From the NCBI RefSeq assembly GCF_004403185.1, contig NZ_SOHJ01000011.1, positions 372,001 through 436,000 of the forward strand: 64,000 nucleotides of DNA, read 5' to 3'. Source of the stretch: Cryobacterium suzukii (GTDB lineage: Bacteria > Actinomycetota > Actinomycetes > Actinomycetales > Microbacteriaceae). This document shows positions 22,933 through 32,953 of the stretch, piece by piece. Numbering within the stretch: position 1 is the stretch's first letter; each line of letters begins with the position of its first letter. A program made the position numbers and the translations under genes. The notes under the pieces are model-generated. The model was not told where the DNA came from, made no database searches, and was given only the letters and a program-made list of their open reading frames with translations.

Positions 22933-23051
22933 CTGTACGGAGGTGGGTTGCCCCAATTCCGGTCGTTTGATCGTCTCCAGTCATCGAATATAAATACGCG
23001 CAAAATTCTAAGAGAACGTGAGAAACCCTCGATTTGAGCCTGGGGTTTTGG

Positions 23052-23057
23052 TACACT
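23052..23057 (+). promoter_or_regulatory. TACACT -10 element, leaderless start of the HNH gene
   Basis: TACACT, six bases (TATTCT), then ATG at 23064. There is no purine-rich ribosome binding site between. No convincing -35 at the usual distance is visible. Confidence 0.45.
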
Positions 23058-23063
23058 TATTCT

Positions 23064-24797
23064 ATGAGCCAGAGCGGTGACACTCCCCAGCAGCAGGGTG
23101 TGAGTGATCGTTTTCTGGCGATGCTGCCCGATAGCGAGTTCGAGCGCTGGGCGTTCTCCGATGAAGACCGAGCCTGGATTAATGCCTTTCGGGAGGAATG
23201 CCGCGCGGCCGGGGAGGCTGAGGAAGCAGCTGCGCGGACTTCCCCGTTTACTGACGGCCCGACCATCCCCGCCGACCTCGACCTCACCGAAGTGTTCGGC
23301 GCGGTGCCGCCCGAGCATCTGTTCGACGAGGACCTCCGCGAAGAGTTTCTCTATGCCGACTACCTCGCGGCCAATTTCCTCCCGGCTGACGCGGCTGCGG
23401 CTGACGCGGCTGCGGCTGACGCGGCTGCTGGCTTGAGTCCGTTCCAGCGTCGGCAGGCGCTGTTCGTTGACCGCGTGATCTTCCTCGAGAAGATCATTGC
23501 CTGGGCCCAGGCGAGTAAAGCCGAGATCCTCACCGAGGCGTGGGATTACACCACCAACACGGCCGAAACCGGCCGGCCGCAGGCCGGGCCGCAGCACGAG
23601 CACGACTGGGACGCCACCTTCGCTGCCCAGCAGGGGCTGATCGCAGAAATCGGCTGTGCGCTGCGCATCCCCGCCGGCACCGCCTCCGGCCTCCTCCACG
23701 AGAGCCGCGTGCTCGTCGAATCCCGTCCGCGCACCCTCGATGCGCTCCGCACCGGGGCCATTTCCTTGCGCCATGTCCGGCGGGTGCTTGACCAGCTCGA
23801 CTCCGTACCCCAGCCCGCCCGTGCGGAGCTGGAGGCGGTGCTGCTGCCGCACGCTCGCAAGCTCACCGCGGCGCAGTTCGACGGCAAGGCCCGCAAACTG
23901 CGCGAACGCTTCCACCCCGACAGCATCACCGTCCGCCGCACCAAGTGCCTCGCTGACCGCAGGGTGATGTTCTTCCCCGATCAGGACGGCATGGCCACGC
24001 TCTGGCTGCGCGCCGCGTCGGACGACCTGTTGGCCGTCTATAACCGCGTCACCGAGACCGCCCTCAGCCTGCAGGGCCCCGATGAACCCCGCACTCTCAG
24101 TCAATTACGAGCGGATGTCGCCATCGACCTCCTCGCCAGTGGCGTCACCAGCACCGGCCTCGGCGCCGGAATCAGCGCGACCGTGAACGTCACCGTGCCG
24201 GTGCTGACCCTGATGGGAAAAAGCGATGAACCCGGCGAACTGGAAGGGTACGGGCCGATCGACCCGGAGACCGCCCGCCGCCTGGCCGGCACCGCGACCA
24301 GTTTCCTGCGCATCCTCACCCACCCACACACCGGCATCGTCCTCGACGTCAGCGCCACCCCGTTCCGGGTGCCGGCGGCGCTGAAGAAATACCTGCAACT
24401 CCGTGATGGAACCTGCCGGTTCCCGGGCTGCAACCGCTCCGCCCGACATTCCGACCTCGACCACACCCGCGACAAACAATTCGGCGGGCCCACCGCCGCG
24501 ACCAACCTGCACTTTCTCTGCCCCGCGAACCACAATCTGAAGCACTACAGCGACTGGAACGTTATCGCCGATCCCGACGGCACCCTCAACTGGACCAGCC
24601 CCGCCGGCAAGCACTACGCCACCGACCCCGCCACCCGCATCAGCCCCCACCTACAACAAACCGAAACGCCGCCAGAACCACCACCCGGGCAGGCATTTCC
24701 CGCATCGACGCCGTCCGCTGAACCAATCAGCGACCCGTGGACCACCCCCTGGACCATCATCGGGAACGGCGACGACCCCGCCCCGCAACCGTTCTAA
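23064..24797 (+). CDS. HNH endonuclease, DUF222 / 13E12 repeat family
   Basis: 577 residues. The long DUF222 N-terminal region (about 130-400) has SLRHVRRVLDQLDSVPQPAR and LTAAQFDGKARKLRERFHPD. A C-terminal HNH domain (about 440-515) has LRDGTCRFPGCNRSARHSDL, DHTRDKQFGGPT and NLHFLCPANHNLKHYSDW. The tail is Pro-rich. The family is multicopy in actinobacterial genomes and its role is poorly known. Residues 108-122 are three ADAAA repeats from a 15-base tandem repeat. Probably leaderless. Confidence 0.88.
   Translation: MSQSGDTPQQQGVSDRFLAMLPDSEFERWAFSDEDRAWINAFREECRAAGEAEEAAARTSPFTDGPTIPADLDLTEVFGAVPPEHLFDEDLREEFLYADYLAANFLPADAAAADAAAADAAAGLSPFQRRQALFVDRVIFLEKIIAWAQASKAEILTEAWDYTTNTAETGRPQAGPQHEHDWDATFAAQQGLIAEIGCALRIPAGTASGLLHESRVLVESRPRTLDALRTGAISLRHVRRVLDQLDSVPQPARAELEAVLLPHARKLTAAQFDGKARKLRERFHPDSITVRRTKCLADRRVMFFPDQDGMATLWLRAASDDLLAVYNRVTETALSLQGPDEPRTLSQLRADVAIDLLASGVTSTGLGAGISATVNVTVPVLTLMGKSDEPGELEGYGPIDPETARRLAGTATSFLRILTHPHTGIVLDVSATPFRVPAALKKYLQLRDGTCRFPGCNRSARHSDLDHTRDKQFGGPTAATNLHFLCPANHNLKHYSDWNVIADPDGTLNWTSPAGKHYATDPATRISPHLQQTETPPEPPPGQAFPASTPSAEPISDPWTTPWTIIGNGDDPAPQPF
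23384..23428 (+). repeat. Three perfect tandem copies of a 15-base unit inside the HNH gene
   Basis: The unit GGCTGACGCGGCTGC is repeated at 23384-23398, 23399-23413 and 23414-23428. It encodes an in-frame Ala-Asp-Ala-Ala-Ala run between the N-terminal acidic segment and the DUF222 core. A copy-number change would keep frame. Confidence 0.9.
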
Positions 24798-25143: not shown

Positions 25144-25149
25144 TAGCGT
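25144..25149 (+). promoter_or_regulatory. TAGCGT -10 element placing transcription start on a leader ORF
   Basis: TAGCGT, six bases, then ATG at 25156, the first codon of a 12-codon leader ORF ahead of the membrane protein at 25191. Confidence 0.4.
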
Positions 25150-25155
25150 TGCATC

Positions 25156-25194
25156 ATGACCGCGCGCGACAGCCCCTCCTGGGGACGGGAATGA
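25156..25194 (+). CDS. Short leader ORF (12 codons) coupled to the membrane protein gene
   Basis: ATG at 25156 opens a frame reading MTARDSPSWGRE and stopping at TGA 25192-25194, which overlaps the ATG at 25191 of the next gene as ATGA. No expression evidence exists. The support is the precise overlap and a TANNNT hexamer six bases upstream of its ATG. No run of one amino acid suggests attenuation. Confidence 0.35.
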   Translation: MTARDSPSWGRE

Positions 25195-25850
25195 AGACGC
25201 GCACAGCGTTCGCTGTGGCGCGTCTCGGCCTGGCGGCGGTCGGATTATTCGCCCTGATCGGGTATTTCTATTACACCCTCGGGGTGGCGTCGTTTGCGAT
25301 GGCGAATTTCTTCAGCTACTTCACCGTACAGAGCGCCATCGCCTCCGTCGCGGTGATCCTGACGGCAGCCATCGTGGCGCTGCGGCGGCCGATCGACCCG
25401 GCCTGGCTCGACATGTTGCGTGCCATGGTGACGACCTACATTCTGGTGTCCGGCGTGGTCTACGGCATCATCGTCTGGCAATCCTCGAGCGCCAACTACT
25501 CGATCGAGGTGCCATGGTCGAGCCAGCTGCTGCACTTCGTAATTCCGGCCTGCGCCCTGATTGACTGGATGATAGACCCGTTCAAGGCACGCCTGCCGTG
25601 GAAATACCTGGGCTGGGCCATCGTTTTTCCGGTGCTCTGGCTGGTCTTCACGCTCATCCGCGGACCGATCGTCGGCTGGTACCCGTACTTTTTTCTCGAC
25701 GCCCGGCAGGTCAGCGGCCCCGGAGAGACGGTGTCCTATTGCCTGATCATCGTTGCAATAATTACCGGCATCGCGGCGCTGCTCACCTGGATCACCCGGC
25801 TGAAGCGGATGCCCAGGCACCTGCTGCCGCCCTGGGGCTCCGCGCTCTGA
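25191..25850 (+). CDS. Pr6Pr family membrane protein
   Basis: 219 residues with about six transmembrane helices. The pattern fits the Pr6Pr/FAR-17a/AIG1-like family: GYFYYTLGVASFAMANFFSY, TVQSAIASVAVILTAAIVAL, LLHFVIPACALIDWMIDP and WAIVFPVLWLVFTLIRGPIV. Conserved His and Trp in the HF and W...LVFTL..G...WYPYFFLD segments fit the family. Function unknown. The ATG at 25191 follows GGGGACGGGA. A TTG at 25149 in the same frame is less likely. Converges on the amine oxidase gene. Confidence 0.83.
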   Translation: MKTRTAFAVARLGLAAVGLFALIGYFYYTLGVASFAMANFFSYFTVQSAIASVAVILTAAIVALRRPIDPAWLDMLRAMVTTYILVSGVVYGIIVWQSSSANYSIEVPWSSQLLHFVIPACALIDWMIDPFKARLPWKYLGWAIVFPVLWLVFTLIRGPIVGWYPYFFLDARQVSGPGETVSYCLIIVAIITGIAALLTWITRLKRMPRHLLPPWGSAL

Positions 25851-25853
25851 ACC

Positions 25854-27266
25854 CTAGCCGGCGTCGGGAACCGCGAGGAACGGCTCGAGCGAGGCCAGTG
25901 CCGCGGATAGGAATTCGTCGTCATCGAGCTCGGACAGCCGGGTCGCGTTTTCGGCAGCGATCATGCCCATGAGAATGGGTTCTCCGGTGAGCGGCATCAT
26001 ATTGACCCAGACCGGAAAATCGGCGTCTTCGCCGACGATGGTCCAGAGCCTTGCCGCGGTGTCCCAGAACGGCTCGTCGAACCGCAACCAGACCTTATCG
26101 ACCACCCCCATGCCGAGGGCGGCAATGGCCCCGCGATGCGAGAACGGCAGCGCCGGCGAAAATTCCATCGCCGCATTCTTGAGCACACCGAGTGGCACCG
26201 TGACGATGACGCGATCCGCCGAGAGCGACTCTCCGGTGCCGAGGCGCAGACTCACACCCCGGTCGTCGTGGGCCACACGGTTGACGACGCTCGAGAGCAA
26301 CAGTTCGAGACCTTCCGCGTCCGCGGTGAGCAGGGTCGAAAAGCCGCCAACCACGATCTGATCATCGTCGGCGCTCGCGATGTCGGTGGCGTACCAGGCT
26401 GACTGCTGGCTCGGAGTCGCCCCGGTTTCGACCTTGAGCTTGGTGGCGATTTCATACTCGAGCCAATCGGCATCCGAGAGGCCTTCGGCGTTCGGGGTCT
26501 TCGACAGGCTTGCTTCGCCCGAATCAACCAGGGCGCGTTCGATCGAAACGTCTTGCTGCTGATCGGCCGCCCAATCGAGCGCTCCGGCGATAGCCTGGGC
26601 TCCCAGCGGCGATACCTCGACGACCGCACCGGCCCGGGTGCGTACCTCCGGGATACGCACGAACGGCAGTAGGGCGACCCCGAGCGCGGTCAGCTCGTCG
26701 TCCAAAAAGTTGTCGGAGGTGCGATGCACGAATGAGGGACCTCGTTCGATCGGAAATGGCCAGTCGCCACTGACGGTGTCGATACGACCGCCGATGCGGT
26801 CGCGCGCCTCGATCACGACGACACTGAACCCCGCATCGACGAGCTGGCGAGCGGCCGAGATACCGGCGATGCCAGCGCCGACAACGGTGATGCGTTCGCC
26901 GGAAGCCGCGACATCCTGCACCTGGCTGGCCGCGAGTAGGCCCGACGTGCGGGCACCCTGCACGGTTCCCGGTTCGTCGGCTGCGGTCGCTTCACCGGCA
27001 AAAAACACCCGGGCGTCGACGGCCTGACCGAGGGCAGCGCGATGCTCCGGAGTGGCACCGACGGCGGCATAGCTGAAGGATCCGCGGGACAAGGGGTCGG
27101 CCAGCCAGTTAGTGCGGGACACCGCCAGTGGCTGAGGAACCAGTGAAGGAGTGAGGGTGGATGGTAGAACGGATGGCGTCGGCACCGGCGGCGGCGTCAC
27201 GCACGCTGCGAGCGCCAAGACGGAAAAACCCGACGCCGTGCCGAGCAGAAAAGTGCGCCGCTTCAC
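25854..27266 (-). CDS. FAD-dependent amine oxidase-like Tat lipoprotein with apparently permuted domain order
   Basis: 470 residues. The N-terminus MKRRTFLLGTASGFSVLALAAC has a twin-arginine motif and a lipobox (Cys22). The FAD Rossmann motif (VVGAGIAGISAARQLVDAGF, about 128-147, then EARDRIGGRI) comes only after residues 52-116. That preceding segment reads TNWLADPLSRGSFSY, ARVFFAGEAT and GTVQGARTSGLLAA, which in monoamine/polyamine oxidases is the C-terminal FAD-contact segment. The protein ends at the point where that segment would normally follow (LEPFLAVPDAG). The fold is therefore complete but circularly permuted. GTG start. Substrate unknown. Confidence 0.85.
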   Translation of the reverse strand: MKRRTFLLGTASGFSVLALAACVTPPPVPTPSVLPSTLTPSLVPQPLAVSRTNWLADPLSRGSFSYAAVGATPEHRAALGQAVDARVFFAGEATAADEPGTVQGARTSGLLAASQVQDVAASGERITVVGAGIAGISAARQLVDAGFSVVVIEARDRIGGRIDTVSGDWPFPIERGPSFVHRTSDNFLDDELTALGVALLPFVRIPEVRTRAGAVVEVSPLGAQAIAGALDWAADQQQDVSIERALVDSGEASLSKTPNAEGLSDADWLEYEIATKLKVETGATPSQQSAWYATDIASADDDQIVVGGFSTLLTADAEGLELLLSSVVNRVAHDDRGVSLRLGTGESLSADRVIVTVPLGVLKNAAMEFSPALPFSHRGAIAALGMGVVDKVWLRFDEPFWDTAARLWTIVGEDADFPVWVNMMPLTGEPILMGMIAAENATRLSELDDDEFLSAALASLEPFLAVPDAG

Positions 27267-28271: not shown

Positions 28272-29828
28272 CTAGACCGGATCGGGCAACGACAGGAAGC
28301 CGTCGACGAACAGCTCGCGCACCTTCGGCAGGAGTTCGGCGGCGAGCGCCTCCTCGTCGGCCTCGAGCAGTTGGGCGAGAGCGCCGATGATGGCGCCGAC
28401 GGCGAGGTCGCCGTCGCAGGCGCCGACCAGCCCGGCCAGGGCCGTATCGAGCGGCACCGAACGGCCGAATCCGCTGCCCTGATGCAGGGTCATGAGCGTC
28501 GGATCCTGCTGACCGGGCCAGTAGTGGCGTTCCTCGGTGACGTCGGAGGCCAGGGTGAGCTGTGTGCGCAACAGGCGCGCGTCATCCGCTTGAGCCTGCC
28601 AGTCGTGGGCGGCGAGGCACTCAGCGAGGTGCGCGCCGAGGCCGGCCGGGTTGTGGCCGAGGGCATCCGGCATGCGTTCGAGGCGACGCAAGACGGGGGC
28701 AGCGAGACCCGCGTGCGGCAGCCGCAGCAGCAGGTAACCGAAGCCGACCCGGCGCACGCCGCGTGCGTCAAAGTCATTCAGCCAGGCGTCGTAGAGCCGG
28801 TCGAAGTCGGGGCCGGGCCGGGTGCCGCCGTCGCGAATCCAGGTTTCGGCGTATTCGCCCGGTGATTGCACCTCGCGTTCGATGATCCACGCGTCGAGCA
28901 GAGACTCTCCAGGCCCCGGCGTGAGCCAGCGCTCGAGGCGCTCGAAGGCATCCGTTTCGCCGTGGTACTCCCAGTTGCCGAGCAGCTGCGCAACGCCGCC
29001 GGGCGTGAGATGGTCGGCTGCCCCGCGCACGACGGCCTCGACCAGGGCGTCGCCGACCATTCCGCCGTCGCGATACTCGTAGCTCGGCACGCCCTCGGCC
29101 CGAGGCGTGATCACGAACGGCGGGTTCGAGATGATGTGATCGAACCGCTCCCCCGCCACCGGCTCGAACAGGCTGCCGAGCCGAAACTCGATATTGTCGA
29201 TCTCGTTGAGTTTCGCGTTCAGCGCCGCGAGTTCGAGCGCCCGCACCGAGATATCGGTAGCGACGACGTACTCGGCGTGTCGCGAGGCGTGCATGGCCTG
29301 AATTCCGCAGCCGGTGCCGATATCGAGCACGCGCTCCACCTCGCGCGGCATCATGAGTCCGCTCAAGGTTAGAGAAGCTCCGCCGATGCCGAGAACATGG
29401 GTTTCGCCGAGCGCATGCCCTAGCGCCAGCTCCCCGAGATCGCTCACAATCCACCAGCTATCGGCGCCGTGGGCGTCGATGAAGCTATACGGGCGCAGGT
29501 CGACGAGCGGACGCACTCCCGAGTTATCGTCGGCGCCCACAAGACCGAGTTCGAGTGCGCCGCCCGCCCCGAGCGACGGCAGCGCGGCGTCAAGGTCAGC
29601 GCGCGAAACCGGATCTCCGAGCAGGAACAGCCGGGCCAGGGTCGCGGAGGGCTCGTTTCGGCCGAGTTTGACAGCGAGGTCGGCGAGTGCCCGCCGGGCC
29701 GGAACCCGCTGATTGCGGTGCAGCGCGGCATCCGCTTCGATCCCCCACAGTCCGGTCAGGCCGGGAACCGAGAAGTGGGCGGCAGCGAGGTCGGTGCGCA
29801 GACGAGGGATGAGGGTTGCAGAAGTCAC
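28272..29828 (-). CDS. DUF7059-type class I SAM-dependent methyltransferase
   Basis: About 518 residues. The N-terminal 140 residues match the DUF7059 module of actinobacterial PrmC/RsmC-like proteins. SAM motif I is RVLDIGTGCGIQAMHASRHA (about 168-190), and the NPPF catalytic motif (HIISNPPFVITPRA) suggests methylation of an amide or exocyclic amine. The substrate is unknown, and rRNA or release factor are the usual guesses. A C-terminal 200-residue extension is present, as in the family. The start may be GTG 29828 or TTG 29840. Neither has a convincing ribosome binding site. Confidence 0.82.
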   Translation of the reverse strand: MTSATLIPRLRTDLAAAHFSVPGLTGLWGIEADAALHRNQRVPARRALADLAVKLGRNEPSATLARLFLLGDPVSRADLDAALPSLGAGGALELGLVGADDNSGVRPLVDLRPYSFIDAHGADSWWIVSDLGELALGHALGETHVLGIGGASLTLSGLMMPREVERVLDIGTGCGIQAMHASRHAEYVVATDISVRALELAALNAKLNEIDNIEFRLGSLFEPVAGERFDHIISNPPFVITPRAEGVPSYEYRDGGMVGDALVEAVVRGAADHLTPGGVAQLLGNWEYHGETDAFERLERWLTPGPGESLLDAWIIEREVQSPGEYAETWIRDGGTRPGPDFDRLYDAWLNDFDARGVRRVGFGYLLLRLPHAGLAAPVLRRLERMPDALGHNPAGLGAHLAECLAAHDWQAQADDARLLRTQLTLASDVTEERHYWPGQQDPTLMTLHQGSGFGRSVPLDTALAGLVGACDGDLAVGAIIGALAQLLEADEEALAAELLPKVRELFVDGFLSLPDPV

Positions 29829-29868
29829 CCGTCTATTCAACTCGATGCGCGGCCGGTACCCGCACCAG

Positions 29869-31011
29869 TCACAGCCATCGCATGGTGAACGCCCTGGCGA
29901 CGATCGCGTTGGCCGGCGGTAGCGTGAGTGAGCGCACGACGGCGTTGCGGGCGCCGAGCCGCACCCCGTGGGCGGGGCGGCCCATACTCATATTGAATCC
30001 GGCCTGCAGAGCAGCGCGACGCCCTGCACTGCGACGGGTGCGGTCGTACTGTGCCAGAACGGATGCCGCCGCCCCCGGCTCGAGCAACGCCCGCTGCAGC
30101 GCCGGCCCGAGTGCAACGGCGTCGAGCCAGCCGAGATTCATGCCCTGCCCGCCGATCGGACTGATCTCGTGCGCCGCGTCGCCAACCAGCACGATGCGGC
30201 CCGCAGCGTGCAGGGGCTTCGAATGCATGCGCCGCGCCAGCCTCTGCTGCACGGCGAACGCGCTGGCGGCCCCGAGTGGTTCGAGTACGCTCACCCCCGT
30301 TCGATGACGGATGAGCGCGGCCAGGTCGGCGCTGTCGGCATCCGTTGCGAGAAAATCGGTCATCGCCACCCAACGGCGACGACCACCGGGCAGCGGAAAC
30401 GACTCGACCACGCCGCCACGCTCGAAATAGAGCACCGCGCCGGTATCGCCCAGACCAGGGTCGACGAAGTCGCCCATGAGGTAGGTTTCGCTGCGTCCAA
30501 GCTGCCGCCAGGCGATGCCCGCCGCCTCGCGCACCCGGCTCCGCGCTCCGTCTGCCCCGATCACGTAGCGGGCCTCGATCGGGCCGGAGTCGGTCGACAC
30601 CACGACGGCGTCACCGCGGTCGCGCACCCCGGTCATCGTCACGCCGCTGCGATACCGTCCGGGCCGGAGCGCCTCGAATCGCGCGCGCAATAGGGCCTCC
30701 GTCTCGTACTGCGGCAGGGCGACCACGAACGGATATTTCGGTGCTGCCCGCTCAAACGACAGTTGCCCGAGCCTACGGCCGTCAGAGCGCACCTCCCCCT
30801 CGCGAATGCGCACGGCTCGCTCGAGGAGGGCGTCGGCGACGCCGATTGCGGCGAGGGCCCGCAGCGACGGCGGGTGAATGCCAATCGCCCGCGAGCGGAG
30901 CGACGGCTCTCCACGCTGCTCGAGCACCTCAACGTCAAGCCCGCGGACGGCGAGCACGCAGGCGAGCATCGTACCAACCGGCCCCCCGCCGACGATGACA
31001 ACGTCACGCAT
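29869..31011 (-). CDS. FAD-dependent monooxygenase (aromatic hydroxylase type)
   Basis: 380 residues of the PHBH/UbiH-like class A flavoprotein family. It has GGGPVGTMLACVLAVRG at the N-terminus, the DG motif YVIGADGARSRVREAAG, and GRIVLVGDAAHEISPIGGQG followed by MNLG for the FAD ribityl site. It is the third gene after a type III polyketide synthase and a methyltransferase and overlaps the methyltransferase by 8 bases. By analogy with the Streptomyces griseus srsABC operon it probably hydroxylates the phenolic lipid ring toward a quinone (inference). Confidence 0.87.
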   Translation of the reverse strand: MRDVVIVGGGPVGTMLACVLAVRGLDVEVLEQRGEPSLRSRAIGIHPPSLRALAAIGVADALLERAVRIREGEVRSDGRRLGQLSFERAAPKYPFVVALPQYETEALLRARFEALRPGRYRSGVTMTGVRDRGDAVVVSTDSGPIEARYVIGADGARSRVREAAGIAWRQLGRSETYLMGDFVDPGLGDTGAVLYFERGGVVESFPLPGGRRRWVAMTDFLATDADSADLAALIRHRTGVSVLEPLGAASAFAVQQRLARRMHSKPLHAAGRIVLVGDAAHEISPIGGQGMNLGWLDAVALGPALQRALLEPGAAASVLAQYDRTRRSAGRRAALQAGFNMSMGRPAHGVRLGARNAVVRSLTLPPANAIVARAFTMRWL

Positions 31012-31732
31012 CCGGCGTAGGAGCTGCCGGCTGCCTCGGAGCTTCCCAGCGCAGCTCCAATCGAGAGGGGAGGCCGCGCGACACGGTCCACTTGGCCGGC
31101 ACAACCGCCCGCAATTCTTCGGCGGTATAGCTGCGTCGAATCGAGGTCAGCCCATCGGGGCGTATATAGGAGTGCCGAAAGAACGGCGAGGTCGCCGCCG
31201 CGAACCCGAGATAGGCGAAGTTCGATCGCTCGAGGTCGGCGTGCAGCACCCGGCGGCGGGCGAGCGCCTCCGAATCCACGAGCAACCCTTTTAGCTCGTC
31301 GACGCTCAAATGGTGCAGCACGTGATTCGAGACCACGAAGTCGAAGCGCTCGCCGTCCGCTACGAGGTCAGAGCTGAGCGCCCGCTGAAATGACAGCCCG
31401 GCGATTTTTGGCTGGCTGGTCGCGAACACGTGCGCGCGGGCATCCGGATCGATGCCGGTCACCGTGAGCCGCAGACCGTCTCGCACGGCCCAGCGAGCCA
31501 GCGACCGCGAGACGTCGCCACCCCCGGAACCGACGTCGAGCAGCGTCATCTCGGTCGTCGTCGATAGAGCGGGGCGGATGTTGCGGCGATAGATCCCCCA
31601 CCATCCAGACACGACCGCGTTGACCACGCGAAAATCCTGATACGTGCGAGTGAGCATGGCCGGGTCGCACAGTGGAGAATCCATGAGTTCCACGGCCCTG
31701 TGCGCCCGCACGCGGAGCGACGGAAGCGCCAT
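31004..31732 (-). CDS. Class I SAM-dependent methyltransferase, phenolic-lipid operon
   Basis: 242 residues. Motif I is LLDVGSGGGDVSRSLARWAV, and the post-motif FDFVVSNHVLHHLSVDELKG is typical of small-molecule O- or C-methyltransferases. The ATG at 31732 follows the stop of the polyketide synthase with no gap (TGA then ATG), so translation is coupled. Likely methylates the polyketide product (inference from context). Confidence 0.86.
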   Translation of the reverse strand: MALPSLRVRAHRAVELMDSPLCDPAMLTRTYQDFRVVNAVVSGWWGIYRRNIRPALSTTTEMTLLDVGSGGGDVSRSLARWAVRDGLRLTVTGIDPDARAHVFATSQPKIAGLSFQRALSSDLVADGERFDFVVSNHVLHHLSVDELKGLLVDSEALARRRVLHADLERSNFAYLGFAAATSPFFRHSYIRPDGLTSIRRSYTAEELRAVVPAKWTVSRGLPSRLELRWEAPRQPAAPTPDA

Positions 31733-32953
31733 TCAGCCCTCGATCACAGTCATCAGGGCGGATTCCACGGTGAGGCCGGGGCCGAACGCCATGGCGCAGA
31801 CCCGTTCGCCATCGGCCGTGGCCGCGCCGTCGAGAATGGACTTCATCACGAACAGAATGGTCGCGCTGCTCATATTGCCGTTGGTGCGCAGAGTTTCCCG
31901 CGATGGATTCAGCTGGTCAGCGCGCAGTTCGAGCTTCGCTTCGGTTTTGTCGAGAATGCTCCGGCCGCCCGGGTGGATCGCCCAGTGCTCGATCACCGAG
32001 CTGAGCGAGGCCGGGGGCGCGAGGGTGAGAACCCGGGCGGCCACAGTGCCATCGTCAGCTGATTCGCTCGTCTCCTCGGAGAGCCCAGCGGCGAGCTGCG
32101 CAGTGATCGACGCATCGCGGGCGAACAGCGGGGCGAGGGCGCCCTCGATGTGCTCGTCGATGATGTGCGGCACATAGGTGCTTAAAACCATCTCGAAGCC
32201 CTCGTCGCCGATCTTCCACGCCATGTCGCCCTCGCCGACCGGGGTGATCACCGTTTCGAACAGGTCGAGGCCGAGGGCCTTTTCGCCGGGCAGCGGGGCT
32301 CTGGCGCTGACGATGCCGGCGGCGGCACCGTCAGAAAACAAGGAGGAGGCAACGATGGTGTCCGGGTCGCTCGAGGAGCGCAGGTGCAGCGAGCAGAGTT
32401 CCGCGCTGACCACGAGCACGACGGCGTTCGGGTCGGCCTCGACGAACTGCTTCGCGGTGCGGAGGGCCGGCATCGCCGCGTAGCAGCCCATGAATCCCAG
32501 GTGGTAGCGCTGGGTACTGGCTTTTAGCCCGAGCTCCCGCACCAGCATGTAGTCGGGGCCGGGCGCGTAAAACCCGGTGCAGGAGACGGTAACGACGTGG
32601 GTCACATCTTCGGGCCGGATATCGGGGCAGGCCGCGAGCGCCCGGCGGCCAGCCTCAACGAAGAGTTTGGTGGCCTCGGTGATATACAGTTCGTTGCGCA
32701 CTTTGGTGCCCGGCACCAGCAGAAGCTGCTGCCGCGCATCGAAGAACTGCGGTTCGGTCGCGTCGTTGTCGATGGTGAGTTCGGCGATAACGGTATGTCG
32801 GGTCTCGATACCCGACACGTTGAAACTCGTGCTGACCAGTCGTTGAGCGAGTCGGCTCAGCCCAGGCTGGGCGGCGAAGATGTCGCGCACCTGTTCCTGG
32901 ATCAGAATCGTCGGGGGAACTACGGTCTGGAGCGCTCTCAGCGTGACGGCCAT
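31733..32953 (-). CDS. Type III polyketide synthase (chalcone/stilbene synthase family)
   Basis: 406 residues. The Cys-His-Asn triad is visible as Cys157 (HLGFMGCYAAMPAL), His327 (HWAIHPGGRSILD) and Asn360 (TNGNMSSATI). It condenses malonyl-CoA onto an acyl starter. Bacterial operons with this arrangement make alkylresorcinols or alkylpyrones from long-chain acyl groups. Starter specificity cannot be read here. First gene of the PKS, methyltransferase and monooxygenase unit. The promoter probably lies in the short gap 32954-33004. Confidence 0.94.
   Translation of the reverse strand: MAVTLRALQTVVPPTILIQEQVRDIFAAQPGLSRLAQRLVSTSFNVSGIETRHTVIAELTIDNDATEPQFFDARQQLLLVPGTKVRNELYITEATKLFVEAGRRALAACPDIRPEDVTHVVTVSCTGFYAPGPDYMLVRELGLKASTQRYHLGFMGCYAAMPALRTAKQFVEADPNAVVLVVSAELCSLHLRSSSDPDTIVASSLFSDGAAAGIVSARAPLPGEKALGLDLFETVITPVGEGDMAWKIGDEGFEMVLSTYVPHIIDEHIEGALAPLFARDASITAQLAAGLSEETSESADDGTVAARVLTLAPPASLSSVIEHWAIHPGGRSILDKTEAKLELRADQLNPSRETLRTNGNMSSATILFVMKSILDGAATADGERVCAMAFGPGLTVESALMTVIEG

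Follow-up and report, generated by a model that had tools for sequence, protein, structure and literature searches.

The locus

The window, that is, the whole 64,000-nucleotide stretch of Cryobacterium suzukii that was analysed (contig NZ_SOHJ01000011.1, positions 372,001 to 436,000), carries on its reverse strand a 470-aa open reading frame, free of internal stops, in which the parts of a flavin amine oxidase follow one another in an unusual order (Table 1). The gene converges on one for a Pr6Pr family membrane protein, and upstream of it lie SDR and DUF7059 methyltransferase genes, an arrangement partly kept in congeners. At 28272-32953 (-), adjoining the DUF7059 methyltransferase gene, chalcone synthase-like (type III polyketide synthase), methyltransferase, and FAD_binding_3 genes stand in a row and likely form a small polyketide cluster. 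A 587-aa ORF at 23034-24797 (+), presumably a DUF222/HNH-like protein, has the short repeat ADAAAADAAAADAAA near its N-terminus.

Table 1. Coordinates (window numbering) of the amine oxidase-type gene, its parts, and its convergent neighbor
Feature	Position	Strand	Details and basis
Circularly permuted flavin amine oxidase-type gene	25854..27266	(-)	470 aa, GTG start; ORF reading and PF01593 in two stretches
Residues 1-22: putative twin-arginine signal KRRTFLLG and lipobox LAAC, Cys22 the presumed lipidated residue	27201..27266	(-)	Sequence motif
Residues 23-42: probable Pro/Ser/Thr-rich tether	27141..27200	(-)	Sequence; pLDDT mostly <50
Residues 43-118: canonical C-terminal segment (W..DP.S.GS.S, FFAGEAT, GT..GA..SG)	26913..27140	(-)	PF01593 364-442; LSD2 chain 700-773
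Residues 119-124: short linker from canonical C-terminal helix to first Rossmann strand	26895..26912	(-)	DSSP of model
Residues 125-465: FAD-binding Rossmann motif VVGAGIAG and remaining FAD/substrate domains	25872..26894	(-)	PF01593 1-366; LSD2 chain 337-693
K391, aligned with an LSD2 lysine	26094..26096	(-)	phmmer alignment, column counts
Pr6Pr family membrane protein, convergent neighbor	25149..25850	(+)	NF038065, E 7.4e-39

Evidence for a circularly permuted order

At this locus, the PF01593 model matches the source genome in two stretches: model positions 364-442 at window 26919-27155 (E 4.9e-16) and model positions 1-366 at window 25872-26870 (E 4e-47). The two matches do not overlap, lie in the same open frame of 477 aa, and cover the model once in swapped order; elsewhere in the source genome, PF01593 matches at six more places, none of which has such a swapped pair. 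With hmmscan, the 470-aa protein scores 223.4 bits in total against PF01593 (curated cut-off 19.8), again in two stretches, of which the best is residues 133-465. A phmmer comparison with solved structures pairs residues 124-462 with 337-693 of LSD2 and residues 43-116 with 700-773. Accordingly, W54..D57, FFAGEAT (88-94), and GTVQGA (100-105) all precede VVGAGIAG, which contains the dinucleotide-binding GxGxxG as GAGIAG at 130; E153 is the acidic end of beta-2, and the chain stops at the point where the canonical C-terminal segment would start.

The protein therefore departs from the canonical segment order (364-442 stands ahead of 1-366) and is filed as a permuted variant of the PF01593 superfamily. 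Because each piece is present as a single copy, the order is rotated, and the old termini are joined, the rearrangement is a circular permutation, and the 470-aa ORF encodes a natural circular permutant within the flavin amine oxidase superfamily. A preliminary description of this DNA had proposed exactly this, with a permutation in place of a duplication. Its motif positions and coordinates were correct when the ORF was reread, the swapped coverage of both PF01593 and LSD2 confirms the permutation, and a duplication is contradicted by the finding of each PF01593/LSD2 part only once.

Distribution of the permuted form

The source genome and all 36 congeners searched carry the permuted ORF, in the congeners at 51-91% identity over most or all of its length; in one congener (G021), the match falls into two parts within a single open frame, and the two segments are about 88-92% identical to those of Cryobacterium aureum (L115). 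For wider searches, a query of 140 residues across the junction was used. Among 398 Microbacteriaceae genomes, 146 match this query at E <= 1e-12, and 133 (counted from the listing) have a single match that spans the junction, running from query position 8 or lower to 124 or higher without a stop, at E about 3e-24 or better; all 30 loci from this search whose ORFs were checked (L039-L068) are permuted. The remaining 13 of the 146 genomes consist of two with a permuted but broken gene (a frame change in G418, a contig end in G071) and 11 that match on one side only or partly, the six of these that were read (L100-L103, L113, and L114) being canonical. The order- and phylum-level sets, of 396 genomes each, overlap partly with the family set and with each other. 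The former gave 21 spanning matches inside Microbacteriaceae and four outside, these four permuted, and the latter gave six outside the class, all of them permuted and one of them short in its ORF.

Of 513 candidates among GTDB contigs, the best 80 yielded a permuted ORF at 32 loci and a canonical one at 48. Within these best 80, the permuted loci include Cryobacterium, Leifsonia, Microbacterium, Naasia, Microthrix, and Winogradskya; others come from metagenome-assembled genomes (MAGs) of an Ilumatobacteraceae, an Acidimicrobiaceae, and a gammaproteobacterium, or from Nitratireductor, Pseudomonas sp. 21, Devosiaceae, Hyphomicrobiales, Rhodobacteraceae (a short ORF), and Sphingomonadaceae. In all four proteobacterial genomes checked, the permuted order is independently confirmed by the Pfam model. 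The permuted form is sparse there: at E <= 1e-18, and with the query genomes included, matches occur in 5 of 297 genomes from the order that contains Nitratireductor and in 18 of 198 from the family of Pseudomonas. Overall, the permuted enzyme is widespread, occurring in many bacteria of two phyla (Actinomycetota and, among the Proteobacteria, Alpha- and Gammaproteobacteria), and the homologue search envisaged in the preliminary description thus found its permuted order in unrelated assemblies of relatives. The relatives extracted form a redundant set of 183 rows, 118 permuted and 65 canonical. Plasmid records gave 18 matches, counted whatever their segment order, all at <60% identity. One permuted gene (L123) lies in a MAG labelled Bifidobacterium breve, where the label is probably wrong or the contig a stray. 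Short or frame-broken permuted genes also occur (L139 with 212 aa, L090 and L107 with 290 aa, and L217 in two frames), perhaps through decay or sequencing errors.

Several candidates were rejected on reading. Junction matches crossing a stop in G892, G1166, and G459 had suggested tandem genes or a C-N-C intermediate; the proteins concerned (L091, L092, and L099) are canonical, with a Tat-type signal ahead of the FAD motif. Weak spanning matches in G885, G826, and G1154 also proved canonical, and in L216 (G661) the FAD part begins near the N-terminus, which leaves no room for a front segment. Since the five weaker phylum-level matches (G892, G1166, G885, G826, and G1154) are canonical, weak junction matches alone prove nothing, and those counted as evidence here are either far stronger than the weak canonical ones or ORF-checked. 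No evolutionary intermediate of the permutation was found among the loci read.

Pr6Pr adjoins the permuted gene at 83 of 121 permuted loci (a redundant set, with some loci too short), convergently at 82 and on the same strand at L126. Across Microbacteriaceae, the identity of these neighbors falls to about 37%, and within the same 121 loci, some of them too short, none stands beside the permuted gene outside this family. The pairing may be plain shared synteny; an open-literature keyword search on Pr6Pr found nothing.

Export signal

Residues 3-22 read as a Tat lipoprotein signal, with twin arginines (residues 3-4), a hydrophobic stretch, and a lipobox cysteine (LAAC, Cys22), and by motif the preliminary description was right to propose one. 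The arginine pair and lipobox recur in all 25 loci displayed (the source genome and 24 congeners), drawn from 30 (L009-L038) of which the other five missed the pattern of the extraction script. Among distinct rows, a crude regular expression for the Tat-lipobox pattern matches 89 of 103 with the permuted and 18 of 63 with the canonical order, figures that are not comparable as rates because the permuted set is rich in Microbacteriaceae. The pattern is absent from seven permuted rows, including those of Pseudomonas and Winogradskya, and seven more match its Tat-like part only. Permutation is therefore not tied to lipidation, and the putative Tat-lipoprotein signal appears to be common in permuted members without being required.

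Breakpoint and origin

From the start of the moved segment to the FAD motif, all 118 permuted rows (redundant) measure 77-86 residues. The stretch from the FAD part to the stop codon in these rows (median 347 aa, range 294-409) matches in length that from the FAD part to the segment start in the 65 canonical rows (median 346 aa, range 331-365), which points to a common break loop. The permuted proteins thus begin and end at about one shared loop, which links the last helix of the substrate domain to the W..DP strand; the corresponding alignment was displayed for 31 of them.

For the tree, segments were rearranged to the canonical order in 71 rows (31 permuted and 40 canonical), leaving out near-copies (>=58% identity for permuted rows, >=70% for canonical rows), most permuted rows of Microbacteriaceae, and L104, L158, and L180. 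It is possible, if somewhat unlikely, that the permutation arose repeatedly at one loop as the sole tolerated cut site. Such a history would agree with the best tree, which needs at least five label changes with corrected segment ends, and with the bootstrap, in which a branch that separates all permuted rows from the canonical ones occurs in 0 of 200 trees. However, the starred branches force just one change, the AU test does not reject a single permuted clade (p 0.343, corrected segment ends), and breakpoints and junction length agree among the permuted rows. An earlier tree, in which the FAD part started too late in rows from the L088/L089 queries, had four label changes and an AU p of 0.486, with the same conclusion. 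One origin is thus not rejected by the trees, and we lean to it because the breakpoint is shared. The permutation could have come about in one of two ways: (i) through a tandem duplication or a fusion whose outer parts were then lost, or (ii) through relocation of the segment to the front.

Flavin site and function

Eight residues are invariant in all 118 permuted rows (W54, D57, G62, G91, E92, E153, G160, and R161), five of them at the FAD site (G91, E92, E153, G160, and R161). The residue counts in the 118 and 65 rows use the earlier cut of the FAD part, which leaves the lysine column untouched and produces gaps at G130-G135. In the phmmer alignment, K391 coincides with a lysine of LSD2, and we take it to be equivalent to K661 of LSD1 and K300 of maize polyamine oxidase. 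This lysine occurs in 64 of the 65 canonical rows but in only 79 of the 118 permuted rows, the other 39 having T (19), S (6), R (4), or one of L, V, A, Q, and N (10 together). The rows without it include L064, L065, L069, and L077 along with 35 others, mostly with T or S. On a 90-row tree, its presence changes at least five times.

As the lysine is missing from 39 of the 118 permuted rows, oxidizing amines may not be the function that the permuted proteins have in common. We think it unlikely that the permuted proteins are flavoproteins other than amine oxidases, such as exported FAD dehydrogenases, electron carriers, or binding proteins, in which the lysine is dispensable and the fold is kept. 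The lower retention of the lysine in permuted than in canonical rows, next to invariant FAD-site residues, would suit such a role, but the window protein retains K391, none of the 38 permuted rows from its genome and congeners (L009-L046) is listed without the lysine, and L136 is the only permuted row outside Microbacteriaceae to have lost it. Because the lysine is kept in the window protein and lost in many relatives, amine oxidation can fairly be inferred for the former and more weakly for the Microbacterium-type relatives.

Predicted structure

An AlphaFold2 model of the 470-aa protein, computed with 23 permuted sequences, has a mean pLDDT of 88.1 and a pTM of 0.85. In blocks of ten, residues 41-120 reach a pLDDT of 90-98, and the 39 residues with a pLDDT <50 include residues 1-37. 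A permuted member from Pseudomonas with no evident signal peptide gave a pLDDT of 90.3 and a pTM of 0.91. We reckon that, with the segment unplaced, the pTM would hardly exceed ~0.75 for the 470-aa protein (of whose 470 residues ~43 are disordered and 76 belong to the moved segment) or ~0.81 for the Pseudomonas member. From these confidence scores, the moved segment is predicted, with confident placement, to pack in one fold with the rest of the chain. Neither outcome that the preliminary description had named as contrary to its reading, a segment predicted not to pack or a conventional order in a corrected assembly, was encountered. DSSP places the linker of the model between a helix at 102-119 and a strand at 125-129.

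Foldseek returned LSD2 as the top match for both models (E 1.7e-25 for the window protein and 4.3e-23 for the Pseudomonas member), with query-normalized TM scores of 0.66 (373 columns) and 0.67, respectively. These sequential alignments score as expected, since such a program must omit the moved segment. Among the best 60 of 120 PDB matches, no permuted chain with its best stretch across the junction was found. A domain-swapped oligomer, in which each copy would lend its front segment to the fold of a neighbor, seems very improbable: permutations and swaps share their geometry, and the models cover single chains only, but the linker has only ~6 residues, and confidence in the single-chain models is high.

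Selection on both segments

In eight congener pairs, NG86 dN/dS lies at 0.04-0.27 in both segments, with several dS values near or above 1; against L010, dN and dS are 0.028 and 0.663 in the moved segment and 0.051 and 0.485 in the remainder. Purifying selection acts on both segments. That the order is an assembly or gene-calling artefact, as the few broken or short ORFs (L139, L090/L107, and L217) might suggest, has a negligible probability and is refuted by its recurrence across many separate assemblies, including the single-contig G007, G020, G022, G023, and G030, and by the low dN/dS in both segments.

A model for the permuted enzyme

Taken as a whole, the window protein is probably a circularly permuted flavin amine oxidase, forming one FAD and substrate-domain unit, that is exported by Tat, tethered by a lipid, and amine-oxidizing. 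Judged by sequence, the cut lies in the loop that follows the last substrate-domain helix and precedes the W..DP strand, and a segment of ~76 residues stands ahead of the Rossmann fold, with a linker of ~6 residues joining the old C-terminus to the old N-terminus. The chain, predicted to fold as a single FAD and substrate-domain unit, would bind FAD in the cytoplasm and then be exported by Tat as a folded protein. Cys22 would be lipidated, and the Pro/Ser/Thr linker of ~20 residues would tether the protein to the outer face of the membrane, where amines would be oxidized outside the membrane with K391 placed at the flavin.

A broader history is more doubtful: the permuted proteins may be an overlooked old branch of the LSD/polyamine oxidase group that arose by one permutation and spread through Actinomycetota and Proteobacteria. 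In Microbacteriaceae, they would have become a membrane-tethered exported flavoprotein that shed the lysine repeatedly and took on a non-amine redox job, perhaps together with the convergent Pr6Pr.

Significance and comparison with known systems

Keyword searches of the open literature returned no account of a flavin amine oxidase in permuted order; as far as they go, circular permutation is undescribed in this superfamily. A natural circular permutation in an extracytosolic flavoprotein is reported for FMN-bind1 proteins (PMC11334425); their domain, as presented there, is unrelated to flavin amine oxidase, and the term "amine oxidase" does not occur in the main text of that article.

The fold concerned is that of the drug targets MAO and LSD1. 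Its natural, conserved permutation reveals a loop at which it tolerates cutting, and the permuted relatives are ready-made permutants for enzyme engineering. One phylum offers both canonical and permuted relatives with Tat signals, in which chain order can be set against folding before export, anchoring, and substrate access. Families of this kind are hidden by order-based reading, and the many members without the flavin-site lysine put the label "amine oxidase" in doubt.

By sequence comparison, the nearest solved relatives are LSD2/LSD1, followed by polyamine and monoamine oxidases. The amine oxidase domains of LSD2/KDM1B and LSD1/KDM1A are the best sequence and fold matches and share the lysine aligned with K391. 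LSD1 and LSD2 are nuclear and have extra domains; unlike the window protein, they have the canonical order, and a histone substrate is not implied for the window protein. The superfamily and the predicted fold are likewise shared by maize polyamine oxidase (1b37, 3kpf) and by monoamine oxidases A and B, all of canonical order. Monoamine oxidases are anchored by a C-terminal helix, in contrast to the presumed N-terminal lipid of the window protein. Comparable in presumed export are the canonical Tat-lipoprotein-like amine oxidases of Actinomycetota (such as L153 from Mycolicibacterium, L109, and L091), which carry the segment at its usual C-terminal place; two of them, L153 and L091, combine the Tat-lipobox pattern with a PF01593-type fold, as is predicted for the window protein.
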